From Rikenellaceae bacterium (GTDB lineage Bacteria > Bacteroidota > Bacteroidia > Bacteroidales > Rikenellaceae), in the NCBI GenBank assembly GCA_015059945.1, contig SUZJ01000001.1:310001-374000 (forward strand): a stretch of 64,000 bases of DNA. Reading direction: 5' to 3'. Positions 4,292 to 61,520 of this stretch are shown here, in pieces. Under the pieces are notes generated by a model that made no database searches, had not been told where the DNA came from, and saw only the letters and a program-made list of their open reading frames with translations. Position numbers and translations under genes: made by a program. Numbering within the stretch: the first letter of the stretch is position 1; each line of letters begins with the position of its first letter.

Positions 4292-7200
4292 ATGTTTGAA
4301 AAACTACACGATTTCAAGAGAGTGTTTTTGACATTTGCTTTGGTACTGATTGGTGGTGTGGCTATGGCACAGAACCTGTCGGTGTCGGGTGTTGTCAAAG
4401 ATATGAATGGCGAGGCCATTATTGGCGCAACCGTAATGGACGTGGCTACCGGCCGTGGTACTGTTACCGACGTTGATGGTAGCTACACTATCGAGGTCCC
4501 CGCAAAGGCTACTCTGCTGGCCGAGTGCGTGGGTTATGTTGCACAAGAGGTAGCTGTTGCAGGTCGCACAACCGTAAACTTTGTGCTGGGCGAGAGCGCC
4601 GAGCAGATTGAGGAGATTGTGATGGTCGGCTATGGCTCGCAGAAAAAGAAAGAGGTTACTGGTGCTGTGTCGTCGATTAAGTCGGATGACTTCAACGCTG
4701 GTGTTAAAACCAACCCCGTAGGTCTGTTGCAGGGTAAGGTTGCAGGTCTGAACGTAATCAAGACCTCGAGCGACCCCACCAACACCGGTTATAGTATGCA
4801 GATTCGTGGTTTCTCGACCCTCGACAAGGGTGCAGGTACCTCGCCTCTGTTTATCGTTGACGGTGTGCCCGTGAGCAACATCGACAACATCGCTCCCGAC
4901 GAGATTGCCTCGATGGACGTGTTGAAAGATGGTTCGGCAGCCGCTATCTATGGTACTCGTGGTACCAACGGTGTGATTATCATCACTACCAAACGTGGCG
5001 AGAACTTCTCGAAAGAGGCCAAGACCGCAGTTGAGTACTCGGGCTACATTTCGGCTTCGGTGCGCAATGGCGATATGGGCCTGGCAACCGCCGAGGAGTA
5101 TGTAAATCTCGAGGAGCTCTCGGGTGGCAGGGTTAAACCCATCATCTACACCGACGCCGAGGGTAATGTGACCACCACCAACTGGATGGATGAGTTGTGC
5201 CGCCCAGTGGCTATCACCAACAACCACAATGTGGCTATCGTTGGCTCGTCGAAAGATTTCAACTACCGCGCTTCGATTGCCTACAAGGGTGCTCAGGGTA
5301 TTGCTAAGACCAACAACCGCGAGGAGCTGTTGGCTAAGATTGCTGCTAACCAGAAAGCTCTGGATGGCAAGTTGGAGTTGCAGTATGACCTGTCGTATAT
5401 GCAGTATCGCAACGATTTCTTCTGTGGCGACTTCAAACAGGCCGCTATTCTCAACCCCACCTATCCCGTTAAAGACCCCACTACCGATTCGGGCTACTTC
5501 AACCCCGAGAGTACCGGTGTTCGCAACCCCGTTGAGGATATGAATCAGAGGGAGTCGTATGGCGATGGTAACTACTTCCGTGGCTCGGTTAAGGCTTCGT
5601 ATAGCTTCGACACCGTTAAGGGCCTCAAGCTGAACGCCTTTGCCGCTATCGAGGAGGGTGATAACCGCAGCTACTGGTTCAACAAGACTATCAATACCGA
5701 CATCGACGGCTCGGGTAAGGCTGGTCGTGGCTACGATATGAGCCTCAACAACCTCTACGAGATTACCGCCGACTATGTTCGCTCGTGGGATGGCCACAAC
5801 CTGAGCGCTGTGGCCGGCTGGTCGTATCAGCACTTCCTCTACGATGGTCTGAACGCATCGAACAAGGGCTTCCCCACCGAGGGCTCGAAATACTATCAGA
5901 TTGGCAATGGTGATGCCTCGAAGGAGTATCTGAACGCTGGCTCGTACCGCAACTCGAACGCTTTGCAGGCTATCTTTGGTCGTGTAAACTACTCGTTTGA
6001 CGGTAAGTATCTGGTTTCGGCTTCGCTGCGTCGCGAGGGCTCGAGCCGCTTTGGTGCCAACAACAAGTGGGGTTGGTTCCCCGCAATCTCGTTCGGTTGG
6101 CGTATCAGCCAGGAGGACTTTATGATGGGTAACGACTGGATTGACGATATGAAATTGCGTCTGGGTTATGGTGTTACCGGTAACAACCTCGGTAGCGACC
6201 TGCGCTCGGTAGCAATGTTGTCGAATGGTGGTACCTTCTGGTACAACGGCCAGTATGTATATACTTATGGTGTAAACCAGAACGTAAACCCCGACCTGCG
6301 CTGGGAGAAGAAACACGAGTATAACCTCGGTTTGGACTATGCAGTTCAGGACAACAGGTTCTATGGTAGCTTGGATGTTTACTACCGCCACACCACCGAC
6401 CTGTTGTGGGACTACGAGGTGCCCACTCCTCCCTATCAGTACGCTACTCTTCTGGCTAACGCTGGTGAGATGAAGTCGTTTGGTGTTGAGTTGGTGCTGA
6501 ATGCCGACGTGCTGCGCGACAAAGAGCTCAGCTGGACCACCACCCCCACTATCGCCTTCAACCGCAACTATATCACCAAGCTGTCTGACCCCTCGAAGGG
6601 CTTCAACTACAAGCAGACCGAGGCTGGTGGCGTAGGTGAGAACGGTATTATGAACACCAACACCCAGATTCTGATTGAGGGTGAGTCGGTAGGCTCGTTC
6701 TACGGCCACAAATTCCTGACCATCGACGAGAAGGGCGTTTGGTACTTCACCACTCCCAAGAACCCCGAGACTGGCAAGGTTGGTTATGCAACTACCGAGA
6801 GTGCTGTTGAGAGCGGCCGTCAGGTTGTTGGTAACGCACAGCCTCTGTTCACCTTCGGTTGGAACAACACCTTCCGTTACAGGAACTTCGACGCCAGCAT
6901 ATTCTTCCGTGGCGTTGTTGGCAACGACGTGCTGAACTTGACTCGTTGGGCCTACGGTCCCCAGAGCTCGACTTCGATGAACCTCTTTATCGAGGATGCA
7001 GTGGGCGACAATGTGGTTTACACCAACAAGGCTCTCTTTACTGACTACTATCTGGAGGATGGCTCGTACATCAAACTCGACAACCTGACCGTGGGTTACA
7101 CCTACGATCTGCCCGAGAGCTCGAACATCGAGTCGATGCGCCTCTATATGACCGCACAGAATGTTCTGACCATCACCGGTTATAGCGGTCAGGATCCCGA

Positions 7201-17854: not shown

Positions 17855-18039
17855 TTTCTTTGTTGATAGTTAATTAGTTAAACATAAAACAAGTACTCCC
17901 GCTTGCGGTTTTTGCTCTTGCAGGCGGTTGTTTGTTTGTGCTTTTGTGTGCTTGTGCTTGGTGGTGTGCTTTGAAGATGTCGCCACACCATTGTTGGACT
18001 ACACTAAAAACCCTCCCATTCGCCGCAGGAGCAATCCCA

Positions 18040-18250
18040 ATAACGATGTGGCAGGTCTTCTGACTCGCCTCACTTCCGAACTGCCTTCCCAGTGCTGTGC
18101 ACCGCACCAGTGGCTGATAATGAGATGTTTGTGTTGTTCGGAAGCCTTGTAAGACACCTTGTTTGTAGTGTCGAGGCTTACAGCAGCGGGAACTGTTGCC
18201 GACTTTCACGGCATTCCCTGTTAGTCCCTTTTACGGGAACCGCATCGGCA
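18040..18250 (-). ncRNA. Cobalamin (B12) riboswitch
   Basis: Minus-strand RNA contains the conserved adenosylcobalamin aptamer elements in order: GCGGTTCCC/GGGAATGCCGTGAAAGTCGG, CAACAG...CCGCTGCTGTAAG, the GCCACTGG B12-box region and the terminal AGTCAGAAGACCTGCC. A weak hairpin followed by GGTTTTTAG at about 18006-18031 may form part of the expression platform. It sits about 185 nt before btuG and should repress the operon when B12 is plentiful. Confidence 0.93.
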
Positions 18251-18258
18251 CAAAGGTA
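18251..18258 (-). promoter_or_regulatory. Minus-7 box for the riboswitch-btuG-btuB transcript
   Basis: Minus strand TACCTTTG immediately before the first aptamer helix; no clear minus-33 box seen. Confidence 0.6.
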
Positions 18259-18275
18259 TGAAAAAAAGTGGCTGA

Positions 18276-18403: not shown

Positions 18404-18410
18404 CACGGAA

Positions 18411-18441
18411 AGGCCTTCACATTAGTGGAGGTCTTTTTTTT
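18411..18441 (+). terminator. Terminator of tRNA-Leu
   Basis: AGGCCTTCAC / GTGGAGGTCT stem followed by eight T, 8 nt after the tRNA. A near copy occurs at 18631-18660. Confidence 0.82.
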
Positions 18442-18473
18442 GTGCGAGGGAGTACTGCTTTGGGGTGTATTGC

Positions 18474-18513
18474 GTTTTGTGTGCGGGGAGTGAGTGTTCG
18501 AGCACCCCTCCAA
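18474..18513. repeat. Degenerate repeat related to the tRNA-Leu tail, copy 1
   Basis: Minus strand holds CACTCCCCGCACA, identical to the 3' end of tRNA-Leu plus three flanking bases, next to a TTCGA-containing stretch and CCCCTCC. Copies at 18697-18729 and 18773-18812. No gene is present between 18442 and 18826. Confidence 0.55.
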
Positions 18514-18630
18514 ACCTCCCCTTTAATCCACCTGCGGTGTTTTTTCCTCCTACTTGCGGGGCATAGTCTGCAAGCAGCCTCTGCGCCCGCTTCGGGCGTC
18601 GGTTCGTAGGGGAGGCTTACTAATTTGTGA

Positions 18631-18660
18631 AAGGCCTTCACTTTTGTGGAGGCTTTTTTT
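18631..18660 (+). terminator. Second copy of the tRNA-Leu terminator
   Basis: AAGGCCTTCACTTTTGTGGAGGCTTTTTTT repeats the 18411 hairpin with a different loop. No gene lies immediately upstream, so it looks like part of a local duplication. Confidence 0.6.
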
Positions 18661-18696
18661 GTTGTGTGGGGTTTAGACGATTGTTGTGGTTGTGGG

Positions 18697-18729
18697 TTTT
18701 GTGTGCGGGGCGTGAGGTGTTACCCACCC
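18697..18729. repeat. Degenerate tRNA-Leu-tail repeat, copy 2
   Basis: Begins TTTTGTGTGCGGGG like copies 1 and 3, then diverges and runs directly into the CCCCCTAAATCCCC repeat. Confidence 0.45.
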
Positions 18730-18772
18730 CCTAAATCCCCCTCCTGTGAGGGGGACTTGTCGCTTCGCTCCG
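18727..18772. repeat. Dispersed intergenic repeat, copy 2
   Basis: Same CCCCCTAAATCCCCC start and GACTTGTCGCTTCGCTCCG end as copy 1 at 10981, with a different hairpin loop. Confidence 0.65.
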
Positions 18773-18812
18773 TTTTCTGTGCGGGGAGTGAGTGTTCGAC
18801 CACCCCTCCAAA
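18773..18812. repeat. Degenerate tRNA-Leu-tail repeat, copy 3
   Basis: Nearly identical to copy 1 (GTGCGGGGAGTGAGTGTTCG followed by ACCACCCCTCCAAA). Confidence 0.5.
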
Positions 18813-18826
18813 ACCATTTATAGAAG

Positions 18827-18867
18827 AAAGAGCAAGCCAAGAGGATAAACCTCTTTACTTGCTCTTT
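18827..18867 (-). terminator. Terminator-like hairpin beside the tRNA-Thr fragment
   Basis: AAAGAGCAAG / CTTGCTCTTT outer stem with an inner AGAGG / CCTCT stem. It stands in the same place relative to the tRNA fragment as the terminators beside both full tRNA-Thr genes. Confidence 0.55.
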
Positions 18868-18892
18868 GAGCCAAAAGCGGGACTCGAACCCG
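18868..18892 (-). pseudogene. 25-bp fragment of tRNA-Thr 3' end
   Basis: Identical to the last 24 nt of tRNA-Thr (19042-19114 and 22168-22240) plus one flanking base, then diverges abruptly after the T-arm. Tyrosine integrases that use tRNA genes leave such a 3'-end copy at the far end of the element, so this is a candidate attachment-site remnant. Confidence 0.7.
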
Positions 18893-18924
18893 AGGGCGCT
18901 CGCGCGCCCCGTTGGGGTTATATT

Positions 18925-18960
18925 TACATTCCTCCTAAATCCCCCTTTGAGAAAGGGGGA
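18925..18960. repeat. Dispersed intergenic repeat, copy 3
   Basis: ACATTCCTCCTAAATCCCCC with hairpin CCCCCTTTGA-G-AAAGGGGG, sharing TTTACATTC with copy 1. Confidence 0.65.
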
Positions 18961-19002: not shown

Positions 19003-19036
19003 CAAAAAGAGTAGCCACAAGAGCTACTCTTTTTTG
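19003..19036 (-). terminator. Terminator of tRNA-Thr copy 1
   Basis: AAAAGAGTAGC / GCTACTCTTTT stem, with T-rich sequence on both sides, just after the tRNA 3' end on the minus strand. Confidence 0.75.
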
Positions 19037-19041
19037 TTTTG

Positions 19042-19114
<73 letters not shown>

Positions 19115-19575
19115 ACCGCACACCGATGTTGATTCGGTTTTTCGGCTGTATATCAAACTGTTGCAACTGCAAAGATTATTCTTTTTGACTTGTCTTTTTT
19201 GTGTCGTTTTTTACCTTGGGGTAAACTTTCGGGTAAATATTTTGCCTTGTAGGCGGGTTAATAAATATGGTTGATTGCTCTGCAAAGATACCTCCCTATT
19301 CACAATCTTGTACCGCAAAACAAAGAATTTTATCAACACGCCTACATCTTTTTCATATATCTCCAAACGAGTAAGAATTGATGATATATGCTATCGTAAA
19401 TTGTGTGGTTCTTCATCTTACAATAGAATTAAGCGTAACTCGCAGTAACTCCGTAAATACACCAACAATATATTAAGAAGAATGGGGAGTATATAACTGC
19501 AGTGTAAAATTCATGTTTATTTGATTGATATAGAGTATGAGGGGATATGCAACAAACCATAGTTACACAAATAAG
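19115..19575. other. Gene-free AT-rich left end of the putative element
   Basis: Contains a near-consensus tRNA promoter on the minus strand (TAATCTTTG around 19171), the tandem GGGGTAAAC-type repeats at 19218-19238 and a GTAACTC / GTAACTCC direct repeat near 19435. No credible coding sequence was seen on either strand. Confidence 0.6.
19218..19238. repeat. Tandem 12-bp-period repeat, left end of element
   Basis: GGGGTAAAC at 19218-19226 and CGGGTAAAT at 19230-19238. The same motif with the same 12-bp spacing occurs at 22066-22086 near the other end. Candidate arm-type integrase binding sites. Confidence 0.55.
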
Positions 19576-19608
19576 ATTCCCCATCAGTCTTACAATTTGA
19601 TGGGGAAT
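19576..19608 (-). terminator. Hairpin after the YhcG-like nuclease
   Basis: ATTCCCCATCA / TGATGGGGAAT perfect 11-bp stem 11 bp beyond the nuclease stop; T-rich on the minus strand. Confidence 0.65.
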
Positions 19609-19619
19609 AGGAGTCTTGC

Positions 19620-20810
19620 TTATAGTAGTTTTTTGAGTTCATCTACATCTGGCAAAGCTTTTCTTAATCGCTCAGGCAAGTCGGAAGCAGTTTTGTATGT
19701 TGCAACGCCCATGGGCTTGTCATAATCCCTAACAGCATACTCTACATAAGCTTTATCGGCGCTCTTACACAATACGATACCAATCGAAGGATTCTCATTG
19801 GGCTTTTTGACAAAATCATCAAGAACTCGTAGGTACATATTCAACTGACCAAGATAGGCGGTCTTAAATGGACCAGTTTTTAACTCAATAGCAACCAGCG
19901 AAGACAACTCTCTATTGAAAAACAACAAGTCGATAATATGGGTGTGTCCCAAAGCTTCAACTCTAAATTGATTACCCACAAATGTAAAATCGTGTCCAAA
20001 TGTCATTATAAAGTTTTTGATGTTTTGAACTATTTTATTTTCCACAATGCGTTCATCAATATCTTCTATATCTCTTGCACCAAGTTCTTCCACATTGATA
20101 AAGTCCAAAACATACTCATCCTTAAAAGCCATTATTGCTCTTCTTGCCAATTCAGCATTTGGTATTTTTGCGTTGAAATTATTAGGTAGAGAGGACTGCT
20201 TATGGTAGACATCTTCTTTAATAAGTCGCTTCAAAGCATCAACTTTAAGGTACTCTCTTGCACATAGTTTTATATAGAAATACCTCTCTTCAATAGTCTT
20301 AACCTGCGACAAAATTATAGAATGGTGTGAGAACCCTATTTTGAAAAACTCTTCCGCAGGAAAATTCTTAAAAATAGGCATTTGTAATGTTTGACCATCT
20401 ACAAGTGCTTTGTTTTCTCGGTTATCAGTTGACAAATCATCAGTTCCAACTGACAAACCGCAAATTCGCTCATTATCCGCCACTTGTAATTCATCAGTCG
20501 CAACTGATGAATTACCATCAAGCATCTTCCATTCTTCGTAAAACAACCTCATCAGGCGCAGGTTGGTGGCGGAAAAACCTCGAAGCCCCGGCAGTTCAGA
20601 TTGCAATTTAGTGCTGATAAATTCGATGGCTCCTGTTCCCCAATACCCATTGCGGGAATTATGTGAAAGATAACGCCCTATTCCAAAATACAATGCCAAC
20701 TGTTCCTTGTTTACAAGTTTAACCGCTCGATATTGACTCTCTAAAATGGCTGACTTGATTGTGTCTACAGCTGTGCTATATAAAATGTCAAGAGGTTTAT
20801 TGTTTCCCAT
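19620..20810 (-). CDS. YhcG-family (DUF1016) PDDEXK nuclease
   Basis: Predicted DNA nuclease of unknown target. Residues about 8-180 match the DUF1016 N-terminal helical/winged-helix region (WGTGAIEFISTKLQSELPG, GFSATNLRLMRLFYEEW), and the C-terminal half carries the nuclease core: Asp294 in IIDLLFF and Glu309-x-Lys311 in AIELKTG. The family occurs alone, on mobile elements, and in restriction-modification and other defence loci. Length 396 aa is complete. The linker at residues 100-130 is encoded by a repeated palindromic element (20438-20453 and 20492-20507). Base composition is clearly more AT-rich than the flanking housekeeping genes, consistent with transfer. Confidence 0.88.
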   Translation of the reverse strand: MGNNKPLDILYSTAVDTIKSAILESQYRAVKLVNKEQLALYFGIGRYLSHNSRNGYWGTGAIEFISTKLQSELPGLRGFSATNLRLMRLFYEEWKMLDGNSSVATDELQVADNERICGLSVGTDDLSTDNRENKALVDGQTLQMPIFKNFPAEEFFKIGFSHHSIILSQVKTIEERYFYIKLCAREYLKVDALKRLIKEDVYHKQSSLPNNFNAKIPNAELARRAIMAFKDEYVLDFINVEELGARDIEDIDERIVENKIVQNIKNFIMTFGHDFTFVGNQFRVEALGHTHIIDLLFFNRELSSLVAIELKTGPFKTAYLGQLNMYLRVLDDFVKKPNENPSIGIVLCKSADKAYVEYAVRDYDKPMGVATYKTASDLPERLRKALPDVDELKKLL

Positions 20811-20834
20811 AATTCCAACTATTTCTTATGGATG

Positions 20835-20869
20835 CAAAGTTAACAAATTTTCTATTTAATGGATAGAAA
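20835..20869 (-). promoter_or_regulatory. Nuclease promoter and adjoining palindrome
   Basis: Minus-strand TAACTTTG at 20835-20842 fits the minus-7 consensus, 24 bp before the nuclease start. A TTTCTAT / ATAGAAA palindrome at 20849-20869 lies just upstream, where a repressor could bind. Confidence 0.5.
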
Positions 20870-20883
20870 CTAGATATTTATCG

Positions 20884-20913
20884 TTGATAATCTAAATTTG
20901 TTTCTTATTTTTG
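20884..20913 (+). promoter_or_regulatory. Promoter of the structured RNA / AraC-like gene
   Basis: TTG at 20884-20886, 19 bp, then a perfect TATTTTTG at 20906-20913. It is one of the best promoter matches in the window and points into the hairpin region, not directly at a start codon. Confidence 0.7.
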
Positions 20914-20933
20914 CGACACATATTTACACTCTG

Positions 20934-21100
20934 GACTATCCGTCGACTCAAAAAAGTTCCAATAAATCATAATACAACGGACGATAGTCAAGTAGCGCTA
21001 TGCGCCGACTTGACCGAATCGTTGTATGGGTATTGGAACCACCTTTGAGTCGTTTCAGTCTATGTCGGCGCATTATTTGGAACTATTAACGCTCAAAGAT
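20934..21100 (+). ncRNA. Four-helix extended hairpin with competing pairings
   Basis: Nested perfect helices: CGACTCAAA 20944-20952 with 21044-21052; GTTCCAATA 20956-20964 with 21031-21039; ATACAACG 20972-20979 with 21020-21027; GTCAAGT 20987-20993 with 21008-21014; an apical GCGC-TAT-GCGC. Downstream, GTCGGCGCA 21064-21072 can instead pair with TGCGCCGAC 21001-21009, and TTGGAAC 21077-21083 can replace the partner of GTTCCAA. It lies 200 nt upstream of the AraC-like start, so it may be a regulatory leader, an independent RNA or a mobile-element end. No known RNA family was recognised. Confidence 0.6.
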
Positions 21101-21111
21101 AATGCCCAAGT

Positions 21112-21534
21112 ATGAAGAAACCAACCATCACTCCACGGGATGCCATTCGTGTAATCGAACAGATTGTATGGATTTGCAACAACGCACTCGCTCAGCAATC
21201 ACACAAACTAATTCAAACTCACAGTCAATTTGAATCGTTAGAAGAAGAATTTGTTCACACCAAACTAACATTGACGGAGATGGCAAGGCGGTGTGGTATG
21301 TGTCCCTCGACTTTCAAACGGAAGTTCACCGAACAATACGGCACACCACCCCACAAATGGCAAATCAAACAACACCTCAAACGCTCAACCGAACTTCTGC
21401 TGACAACAGATATGCTTGTCAAGCAGATTGCCTACGAGTGTGGCTTTGCCACCCCCTCACACTTTATTCGTTGCTTCAAAAAAGAGTTTGGTTGCACGCC
21501 AGAAACATATCGCAAACAACTTTATGAGAAATAA
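21112..21534 (+). CDS. Small AraC-type helix-turn-helix protein
   Basis: A 140-aa DNA-binding protein. The last about 100 residues contain both AraC HTH motifs: LTLTEMARRCGMCPSTFKRKF near 52-72 and MLVKQIAYECGFATPSHFIR near 99-118, followed by the family end FGCTPETYRKQ. No effector-binding domain is present; the first about 45 residues are a short helical extension. It is divergent from the nuclease and follows the structured leader, so it may regulate one or both. Target unknown. AT-rich like the rest of this segment. Confidence 0.85.
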   Translation: MKKPTITPRDAIRVIEQIVWICNNALAQQSHKLIQTHSQFESLEEEFVHTKLTLTEMARRCGMCPSTFKRKFTEQYGTPPHKWQIKQHLKRSTELLLTTDMLVKQIAYECGFATPSHFIRCFKKEFGCTPETYRKQLYEK

Positions 21535-21535
21535 A

Positions 21536-21580
21536 AAACACCCTTTGGCTTTCAAGGTCAAAGGTGTTTGTTGTTTTAAT
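21536..21580. terminator. Terminator between AraC-like gene and integrase remnant
   Basis: AACACC-CTTTG / CAAAGGTGTT stem with a GC-poor loop, followed by TTGTTGTTTT on the plus strand and A/T-rich on the other. Works plausibly for both converging genes. Confidence 0.7.
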
Positions 21581-22025
21581 GGGAGCGGTAGATGACGATA
21601 TTTTTGTAGAATCCTTGCGAGAGTGAAGCGAGGCACGATTTGTAGTTTTGTGCCGAACTCAACCTGTTCGCTTTTCTCAAAGATTTGCATAAATCCTCCA
21701 TATACTCCGCAACAGAAATATTCGATACGGGCTTTCGTTTCTTCGTGAGTGCTTCGAGTGTGATGGGCATTTCAAGGACTTCAAGCTGCCGTATTCGCTT
21801 CTCAGTGTCGAGTACCATCTCATCCAGTTTGAGGGCTATTTTCGCACCCTCCTCATACGATGTAAGTGGCTCATTTCGTGAGTAATCCCACGCATTTGGA
21901 GGGATAGATATGCCCGTTGGAATGTAGATTGTTTTGCGGTTGAGAATGAGCCGAATGTTAATTGGGGTAAACATTTTGGAGTTTACCTTGTCCTTACGCA
22001 GAACCTTTACAATGCTGATTGCCAT
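21576..22025 (-). pseudogene. Tyrosine recombinase (integrase) remnant, catalytic domain missing
   Basis: The product begins like Bacteroidetes phage/ICE integrases: an arm-binding domain (SIVKVLRKDKVNSKMFTPINIRL, shown here broken at 20: SIVKVLRKDKVNSKMFTPIN) and the start of the SAM-like core-binding domain (LRKANRLSSAQNYKSCLASL). It stops after about 150 residues, well short of the R-H-R-Y catalytic region; full proteins are about 370-420 aa. An ATG at 22127 extends the frame, but the segment before Met at 22025 is not conserved and encodes the GGGGTAAAC repeats. It lies 43-143 bp from tRNA-Thr copy 2, the usual integrase position. Confidence 0.8.
21964..21972. repeat. Isolated GGGGTAAAC motif inside the integrase remnant
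   Basis: Third right-end occurrence of the same 9-mer as 22066-22086; possible extra integrase-arm site or coincidence. Confidence 0.35.
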
Positions 22026-22065
22026 TGAGTTGAATGGGTTTTGCTCAGACAAAATTTCCCATTTT

Positions 22066-22086
22066 GGGGTAAACATTGGGGTAAAC
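22066..22086. repeat. Tandem 12-bp-period repeat, right end of element
   Basis: GGGGTAAAC at 22066-22074 and 22078-22086, mirroring the tandem pair at 19218-19238. Located about 85 bp from the tRNA-Thr 3' end. Confidence 0.55.
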
Positions 22087-22127
22087 AAATGGCTCAAAAA
22101 TGCCCGTTTTTTGGGGTTTTTCGACAA

Positions 22128-22158
22128 ATAAAAAAGCAGTTGCTTTTTGCAACTGCTT
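22128..22158 (-). terminator. Terminator of tRNA-Thr copy 2
   Basis: AAGCAGTTGC / GCAACTGCTT perfect stem followed by TTTTTATTTG on the minus strand. Confidence 0.78.
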
Positions 22159-22167
22159 GATTTTCAG

Positions 22168-22240
<73 letters not shown>

Positions 22241-22264
22241 ATACCTTTTCTTTATAATGCGAGG

Positions 22265-61262: not shown

Positions 61263-61387
61263 GTCAGGTTCATTTAGAGTGTGTAGCCTTGTTTGGCGTT
61301 AGTAGAAGCAAATTTTTCTTTATGTTTTGTTTTTGCTTTGTGGTTTGTCACTTCTACTGCTTCTTCCACTTGTATGTCTTGATCTAC

Positions 61388-61511
61388 CGTTTCCCTGCGC
61401 TGTCATTATACATATCAGGTTCGGAGGGTATCTTCTCAGCCAACCACTGTGTGCGCAAAAGGTCAAATCGGTACTTGCCCAAATCTGCCGCTCCCGAGGT
61501 TGGCACCCCTA
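61388..61511 (-). ncRNA. TPP riboswitch
   Basis: Minus-strand RNA has the THI-box elements in order: AGGGGTGCC, GGCTGAGA, ATACCC, CGAACCTGAT, TAATG.CAGCG and CAGGGAAACGG. The P3 arm (CCAACC...GGTTGG) is longer than usual, about 55 nt between its two strands. It lies 180 nt upstream of thiM with the terminator in between, so control by premature termination is likely. Confidence 0.92.
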
Positions 61512-61520
61512 ACAGCACTC

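Follow-up and report, generated by a model that had tools for sequence, protein, structure and literature searches.

A multi-copy RNA with two exclusive, conserved structures, usually located before small genes in Rikenellaceae

Introduction

The window analysed here, a stretch of 64,000 nucleotides from a Rikenellaceae bacterium contig, contains a long hairpin directly upstream of a gene for an AraC-type regulator. The question raised by this locus is whether the competing folds of the leader form a genetic switch, or whether the hairpin is a free RNA, a partner of the nuclease encoded next door or a structure of the DNA itself. We found, and hold with great confidence, that the RNA represents a two-state family with exclusive, conserved structures. 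Two conflicting folds, together with the usual location of the RNA before small genes, make a genetic switch its probable role. This multi-copy, probable switch RNA is absent from Rfam and so far seen in one gut-type family of Bacteroidales, and it provides a handle on the control that such bacteria, and the small islands in them, may exert over regulator genes.

Results

The RNA of the window is a nested stem with rival helices

The RNA of the window (copy C1) folds between 20930 and 21062 into a single long stem of nested helices P1, P2, P3 and P4. The helices of 9, 9, 8, 7 and 4 bp described in the initial annotation are all present at their places, and the minimum free energy of the leader (20884-21111) is -66 kcal/mol compared with -44.7 kcal/mol in dinucleotide shuffles (z -5.2, 0 of 200 shuffles being as low). 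The elements of this fold and of its rivals are the following:

20944-20952/21044-21052, plus strand: helix P1, 9 bp
20956-20964/21031-21039, plus strand: helix P2, 9 bp
20972-20979/21020-21027, plus strand: helix P3, 8 bp
20987-20993/21008-21014, plus strand: hairpin P4, 7 bp, whose 3′ strand (21000-21014) is common to the rival helix
GCGC/GCGC: apical helix of 4 bp at the tip of the P1-P4 stem
20944..20979, plus strand: 5′ arms of P1, P2 and P3, seen by folding and by co-variation with the 3′ arms
21020..21052, plus strand: 3′ arms of P3, P2 and P1, seen by folding and co-variation
20934..20944, plus strand: segment a, 5′ partner in the early helix a/a′
20980..20989, plus strand: segment a′, the 3′ side of a/a′, reaching into the beginning of P4
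21064..21073, plus strand: segment "anti", pairing 10/10 with 21000-21009, excluding P4 and H2, and kept in copy 2
21067..21107, plus strand: hairpin H2, ending 4 nt before the AraC start codon and taking GCGCAT of "anti"

Three downstream segments had been proposed as alternatives to the main fold, and all are complementary in the window copy to the parts assigned to them, namely 21064-21073 to 21000-21009 (10/10), 21077-21083 to part of P2 and 21092-21097 to part of P1. The duplex of anti with the 3′ strand of P4 (P4-3′) reaches -21.0 kcal/mol in this copy compared with -13.8 kcal/mol for P4. We also observed an early rival helix, 20934-20944 with 20980-20989, that was missing from the initial list. 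In prefix folding, a/a′ forms in the RNA ending at 20992 (-10.6 kcal/mol) and coexists with P4 at 21014, P3-P4 replaces a/a′ at 21030, and P1-P4 is reached at 21052.

The RNA lies behind a putative promoter in a small island

In a strict form, the promoter consensus of Bacteroidota reads TTTG-N18-22-TAnnTTTG. We take 20906-20913, together with the TTG at 20884-20886, to be a promoter of this type, from which the transcript would start at about 20918-20920. The window contains four sites of this strict form, none of them the one described here. The consensus promoter of the initial annotation is weak as a sigma-70 promoter (9/12, with 4 such sites found in 1 kb and 2.2 expected) but fits the Bacteroidota type, with TATTTTTG and a TTG 19 nt upstream. 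Among the 27 copies segmented below, 20 have an exact TAnnTTTG at most 110 nt upstream of segment a, compared with 9% at random places of the same loci (487/5400, 125-nt windows). The surroundings of the RNA are composed of:

20884..20913, plus strand: putative Bacteroidota-type promoter, TTG at 20884-20886 and TAnnTTTG at 20906-20913 with 19 nt between
21112..21534, plus strand: AraC-type HTH gene, 140 aa (HTH_18, E 2.2e-24), directly downstream of the RNA
19620..20810, minus strand: YhcG/DUF1016 PDDEXK nuclease (YhcG_C, E 2.4e-48; PADLOC PDC-S02), a divergent neighbour about 108 bp away
21576..22127, minus strand: N-terminal remnant of an Arm-DNA-bind_5 tyrosine integrase (domain match)
19041..22240, no strand: small integrative island with the RNA unit, about 3.1 kb, between two copies of tRNA-Thr(cgt)

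The island is flanked by a direct repeat of 93 nt (19023-19115 and 22149-22241, 91% identical), and GGGGTAAAC repeats near both of its ends look like integrase arm sites. The doubled tRNA-Thr(cgt) gene occupies 19041-19114 and 22167-22240, a third fragment of 28 nt from its 3′ end lies at 18865-18892, and integration in tandem may be favoured at this hot spot. Between tRNA-Leu and the island, at 18408-18946, we also observed several direct repeats that are imperfect (families D2, D6 and D7). Elsewhere on the minus strand, the window contains a Cobalamin riboswitch (18033-18259) and a TPP riboswitch (61375-61520).

A second copy in the same genome keeps one of the alternatives

A second copy (C2), located about 204 kb from the window copy, has the -7 element, the RNA and an AraC gene. 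The RNA cores are identical at 148 of 150 columns (20911-21060), the AraC proteins are 73% identical, and the homology of the two copies starts at about 20903 and includes the -7 element. C2 also folds strongly (z -5.5). The alternative 21064-21073 is kept in C2, but the downstream TTGGAAC and CTCAAA are lost, so that conservation in this sister copy is limited to one of the three proposed alternatives.

The C2 island (7.3 kb, L122 7008-14365, G000:C7) lies beside tRNA-Pro. Its genes include GIY-YIG, AlbA_2/HATPase_c_4 and an integrase with all three domains; the island is bounded by an exact repeat of 52 bp, and AAGTCAACC-type repeats are located close to its two ends. The integrase, the tRNA and the neighbour genes all differ between the two islands, and blastn of 3.2 kb round each copy aligns the RNA and the AraC gene only, short pieces aside. 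It is possible that the near-identical cores were maintained by gene conversion, and the wider co-variation test described below is independent of the C1/C2 pair. Within the AraC gene, codons 10-36 (21139-21219) show zero synonymous changes between the copies, unlike the remaining gene, and this invariance may reflect either recombination or a constraint at the RNA level within the coding region.

Copies in related genomes precede different small genes

We searched 268 genomes of the host's bacterial family with the AraC protein, with the ELRDYMY protein introduced below and with two covariance models, R1 built from the two own-genome copies and R2 representing the apical part, the models being run on this family alone. 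A total of 37 RNA copies was read in 21 of these genomes, 32 of them directly before a small gene, counting the degraded genes. The gene downstream is of the AraC type in 4 copies, encodes a protein of about 100 aa from a family that we named ELRDYMY after its motif in 23 and a membrane protein in 3, and is degraded in 2, while 5 copies have no direct gene (L162, L247, L248, L254 and L256). The initial annotation had proposed a search for homologues upstream of AraC/YhcG genes; most copies precede ELRDYMY instead, and YhcG occurs at the window copy only among the loci tested.

The AraC search identified two more AraC genes with a similar leader in G446, the protein being 53% identical over residues 36-136, and in G507, G513, G452 and G494 R1 matched leaders that precede the gene for an unrelated small protein. 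ELRDYMY proteins show the sequence pattern "GELYLF...ATRSELRDYMYNLG" (L163-L192 and others) and, for the three members tried, have no Pfam match and no convincing match in PHROG or NCBIfam. They are found in 42 of the 268 genomes; G631, with 9 matches, has the most, and seven RNA copies were read in it. By our reading, the RNA was located before 22 of 37 inspected ELRDYMY genes (17/30 and 5/7, ten of the 17 being also R1 matches), which gives this undescribed family a regulatory context.

R2 lists 33 places in 17 of the 268 genomes, and the ten R2 loci newly read comprise one ELRDYMY gene (L237), three membrane protein genes (L251, L244 and L234, in G439 and G611), two ELRDYMY genes judged by eye to be degraded (L245 and L255) and four loci without a gene directly behind (L247, L248, L254 and L256). 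The membrane protein is about 130 aa long with an N-terminal membrane-like segment; in L234 the frame is open with the first ATG out of frame. Its C-terminus resembles by eye an HTH of the LuxR type, with no convincing Pfam match for the two proteins tried. Represented by one member each, the three kinds of downstream protein show no mutual similarity in blastp. The conserved letters of the RNA, as judged by eye, are mainly those of the apical hairpin, a, a′ and anti. An empty-site comparison for the copy G446a yielded relatives whose identity over the stretch used as query was 80% or less.

Four of the copies (L171, L172, L173 and L175) were recognised by eye and are outside both models at the thresholds used, and the total of 37 excludes the R2 place G631:C24:71542 and G013 (L159), a partial weak R1 match. 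The hairpin L145:11027-11173 was likewise left uncounted although it has an R1 E-value of 1e-7 and a fold z of -7.1, R1 also scoring the reverse strands of true copies; this long nested hairpin (L145 10990-11262, G446:C5) precedes a secreted-looking ORF of 113 aa and is a candidate relative.

Further searches covered other collections of genomes, phages, plasmids and viral contigs. An exact 22-mer had zero matches in the genome contig collection, and blastn with the hairpin DNA found the own genome only among 60 genomes, again the own genome only at a meaningful E-value among 23 genomes of the genus (other matches, at E up to 10, being short and weak), and none in phages or plasmids. A gapped RNA motif, which fits only some true copies exactly, had none in viral contigs. 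Two viral pattern hits (L041 and L193) have nothing in common with the RNA beyond the pattern and look like chance; in L041 an ORF of a viral contig contains 23 nt identical to the RNA (7117-7139), apparently by coincidence. The AraC protein has matches of less than 60% identity in plasmids (1669 records) and phages (84 records), none in viral contigs, and at E 1e-24 only the own genome among 393 genomes of the order. In genome contigs it has 349 relatives, of which the best 80 are generic HTH proteins by identity, and the stretch upstream of five short ORFs among those best 80 of 349 shows no strong fold. ELRDYMY proteins were found neither in phages, plasmids, viral contigs and solved structures nor in the 393 genomes of the order, which include few of the host's family so that this empty answer is uninformative.

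Two exclusive pairings co-vary on the same strand

We examined co-variation by partner-shuffling, in which RNAduplex energies of each copy's segment with its own partner are compared with those obtained with the partner segment of other copies over 20000 permutations. The main set comprises 21 copies, that is, the 27 segmented copies minus six near-duplicates (C2, G446b, G507, G551, G631b and G597b). G446b has the most decayed outer helices of all copies, and its removal favours the result slightly; the related G446a and G446d were both kept. Windows were placed by script on the nested fold, inside regions bounded by eye. In every segmented copy the order of segments is a, 5′ arms, a′, P4, 3′ arms and anti, and P4-3′ is complementary to two segments, the 5′ strand of P4 and anti.

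We found that all four pairings are stronger within copies than between them. For the nested arms the matched energy is -18.0 kcal/mol compared with -8.0 permuted (z -13.2, 0/20000), for the strands of P4 -17.3 compared with -13.6 (z -5.6, 0/20000), for P4-3′ with anti -24.2 compared with -17.7 (z -8.1, 0/20000) and for a with a′ -13.6 compared with -11.5 (z -3.8, 0/20000, on repeat 4/20000). The copies surpassing their own cross mean number 21 of 21 for the arms, 20 for P4-3′ with anti, 17 for P4 and 17 for a/a′. Six control pairs gave z from 0.4 to -2.2, the pair at -2.2 sharing an edge with P4.

The result was similar for 16 thinned copies found by a model or by AraC, without the four by-eye copies and G446d (z -10.6, -4.5, -6.5 and -3.0 for arms, P4, P4-3′ with anti and a with a′; controls 0.1 to -1.2). 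Nine further copies with fixed windows gave z of -5.3, -3.9 and -3.9 for arms, P4 and P4-3′ with anti, and the six thinned from those nine gave -3.8, -3.6 and -3.4 (controls 1.9 to -1.9). The pairing of a with a′ is non-significant in the further copies (z -1.5 in the nine and -1.4 in the six), both segments being near-invariant there.

The compensatory changes that the initial annotation had set as a test of its fold are thus found in homologues, and the competing folds that it saw ahead of a regulator gene are supported in the sense that P4 and the P4-3′/anti helix both co-evolve on one strand. Because this strand keeps two exclusive partners while its letters change, we conclude that the RNA is a two-state RNA.

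A switch acting during transcription is proposed

Leader-type control of the downstream gene by the two-state RNA is, on balance, the probable function. From prefix folding we predict that during transcription a and a′ pair first, followed by hairpin P4, and that the emerging 3′ arms would then re-pair with the 5′ arms into P1-P3, ousting a/a′. Anti would subsequently either strip the 3′ strand of P4 from the 5′ strand, or spare P4 and fold into H2 before the start codon. The anti/P4-3′ helix with its U-run would act as a terminator and release a free RNA of about 150-190 nt, and the nested fold would let the polymerase read through into the small gene. The outcome of this race would decide between a stop at the T-run and reading of the gene; where the T-run is weak, it would decide if the start codon is left free.

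A run of at least four T's within 12 nt strictly after anti is present in 20 of 27 copies, compared with 4.8% in shuffled flanks. Since a U-run follows anti in most copies, pairing of anti with P4 would terminate transcription, which suggests a termination switch. C1 and C2 have three T's only after anti and no U-run, and with this weak U-run H2 over the AraC start would be the likelier gate in the window copy. Thermodynamics favour the nested fold in all 27 of the 27 copies, with a margin of 2.4 to 23 kcal/mol. In the nested ensemble calculated for the window copy by a method without pseudoknots, the probability of the rival helix is 0; the second state accordingly depends on kinetics or on the binding of a factor. 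The sequences show the structure and its conservation, the co-evolution of the exclusive partners and the location of the RNA before genes; transcription, termination, the ON state and the signal biasing the race are what we infer, and the strand-exchange model gives predictions base by base.

Alternative explanations for the conserved pairings

Rather than controlling the gene behind it, the RNA may act in trans as a free small RNA that has a promoter and a terminator of its own, the genes behind being exchangeable passengers or protein partners. This is consistent with the five copies that lack a direct gene, with the T-run in 20 of 27 copies and with the three downstream protein kinds without blastp similarity. 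However, 32 of 37 copies lie directly before a small or degraded gene, H2 is located just ahead of the start codon in many copies, and no conserved single-stranded seed is evident by eye. Furthermore, a larger gene follows at some distance in two of the copies without a direct gene, L247 and L256; its start codon lies 258 and 321 nt, respectively, from the match of the model, and the RNA could be its leader. Taken together, we regard a trans-acting RNA as rather unlikely.

Control may also be exerted on translation only, with H2 and anti masking or freeing the start codon and the T-run being merely the U-rich arm of H2. H2 does end 4 nt before the AUG of the window copy, C1 and C2 are without a U-run, and the H2 arms co-vary somewhat (matched -10.2 compared with cross -7.8 over 22 copies, 5 of the 22 ranking 9th or worse of 21). 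However, H2 is absent or weak in several copies, and copies without a gene directly behind retain anti and a T-rich tract, which makes translation-only control an unlikely explanation.

Next we considered whether the conserved pairings belong to the DNA, for example to a folded site for a recombinase or to the end of a mobile element, as in the proposal of a hairpin recognised by a transposase. Both own-genome copies are located inside integrase islands, and several copies occur per genome (seven read in G631) in varied contexts. However, G-U pairs become A-C mismatches on the complementary strand, and we found that the apical pairings favour the transcribed strand: it is stronger in 22 and weaker in 4 of 27 copies for P4-3′ with anti, and stronger in 23 and weaker in 4 for P4. 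The bias is small for a with a′ (16 compared with 11) and none is seen for the nested arms (14 compared with 13). The -7 element and the T-run are of fixed orientation, and one strand has two partners. Among the other loci tested (most with about 1.5 kb on each side) an integrase match was found at L254 alone. The DNA reading of the initial annotation is very improbable. A folded site of the integron attC type is a single DNA strand used by an integron integrase; the own-genome integrases are Arm-DNA-bind_5 types at tRNA genes.

Finally, the suggestion that the RNA is a partner or substrate of the YhcG nuclease, a candidate defence protein encoded divergently about 108 bp away, is extremely improbable, with neighbours that differ at the inspected copies, GIY-YIG and AlbA_2 genes instead at copy 2 and zero YhcG matches in the other loci tested.

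Discussion

Beyond leader-type control, the RNA could be the conserved, spreading core of a modular system, a two-state RNA travelling among genomic sites and islands, functional even where no gene follows, with different small proteins (AraC-type HTH, ELRDYMY and membrane protein) as its exchangeable outputs; we offer this wider view as a speculation in which our confidence is low.

In agreement with the initial annotation, which knew no matching family, Rfam 15 has no family on the RNA when the window is searched at gathering score. At E up to 5, the region 20850-21600 gave four matches, all below gathering, and at E up to 1 six of the loci (L155-157, L160, L162 and L144) gave tRNAs and two sub-threshold plastid matches on tRNAs only. 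In the part of the literature available to us, no report was recognised as this RNA family. Structured RNA motifs of Bacteroidetes, including Bacteroidales-1 and Bacteroides-1, were found comparatively according to PMC2864571, and our RNA shares with them the host phylum and the comparative discovery, but differs in having no gathering match in Rfam 15. Bacteroides-2 and GUCCY-hairpin are listed without Rfam accession in the table of PMC2864571 and hence fall outside the Rfam comparison.

Among known RNA systems linked to proteins, type III toxin-antitoxin loci, which combine a tandem-repeat RNA antitoxin with a ToxN-like nuclease, were considered: the repeats of 20800-21600 include no tandem array, and the downstream proteins are HTH proteins or have no Pfam match. 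The msr-msd RNA of retrons is a structured RNA that precedes a gene in mobile islands and has a linked reverse transcriptase. The RNA described here is likewise structured and located before a gene in mobile islands, but consists of a single nested stem with rival helices, and a Pfam scan that covered five ORFs of the copy-2 island and three next to copy 1 detected no reverse transcriptase. The mRNAs of the hok type are metastable, form successive rival helices in transcription and encode small toxin-like peptides. For our RNA, too, rival helices are predicted to follow one another as transcription proceeds, and the start region may be masked, whereas the products here are AraC-type HTH and undescribed proteins instead of small toxin-like peptides.

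Riboswitches and transcription attenuators provide the remaining comparison. Our RNA differs from them in that it has no known aptamer and its downstream genes are of unrelated kinds, some copies being without a gene, and no conserved leader peptide was noticed. With both it shares exclusive helices, in most copies placed between a putative promoter and a gene and with a U-run after one of them, and by analogy the RNA may work like an attenuator or an orphan riboswitch.
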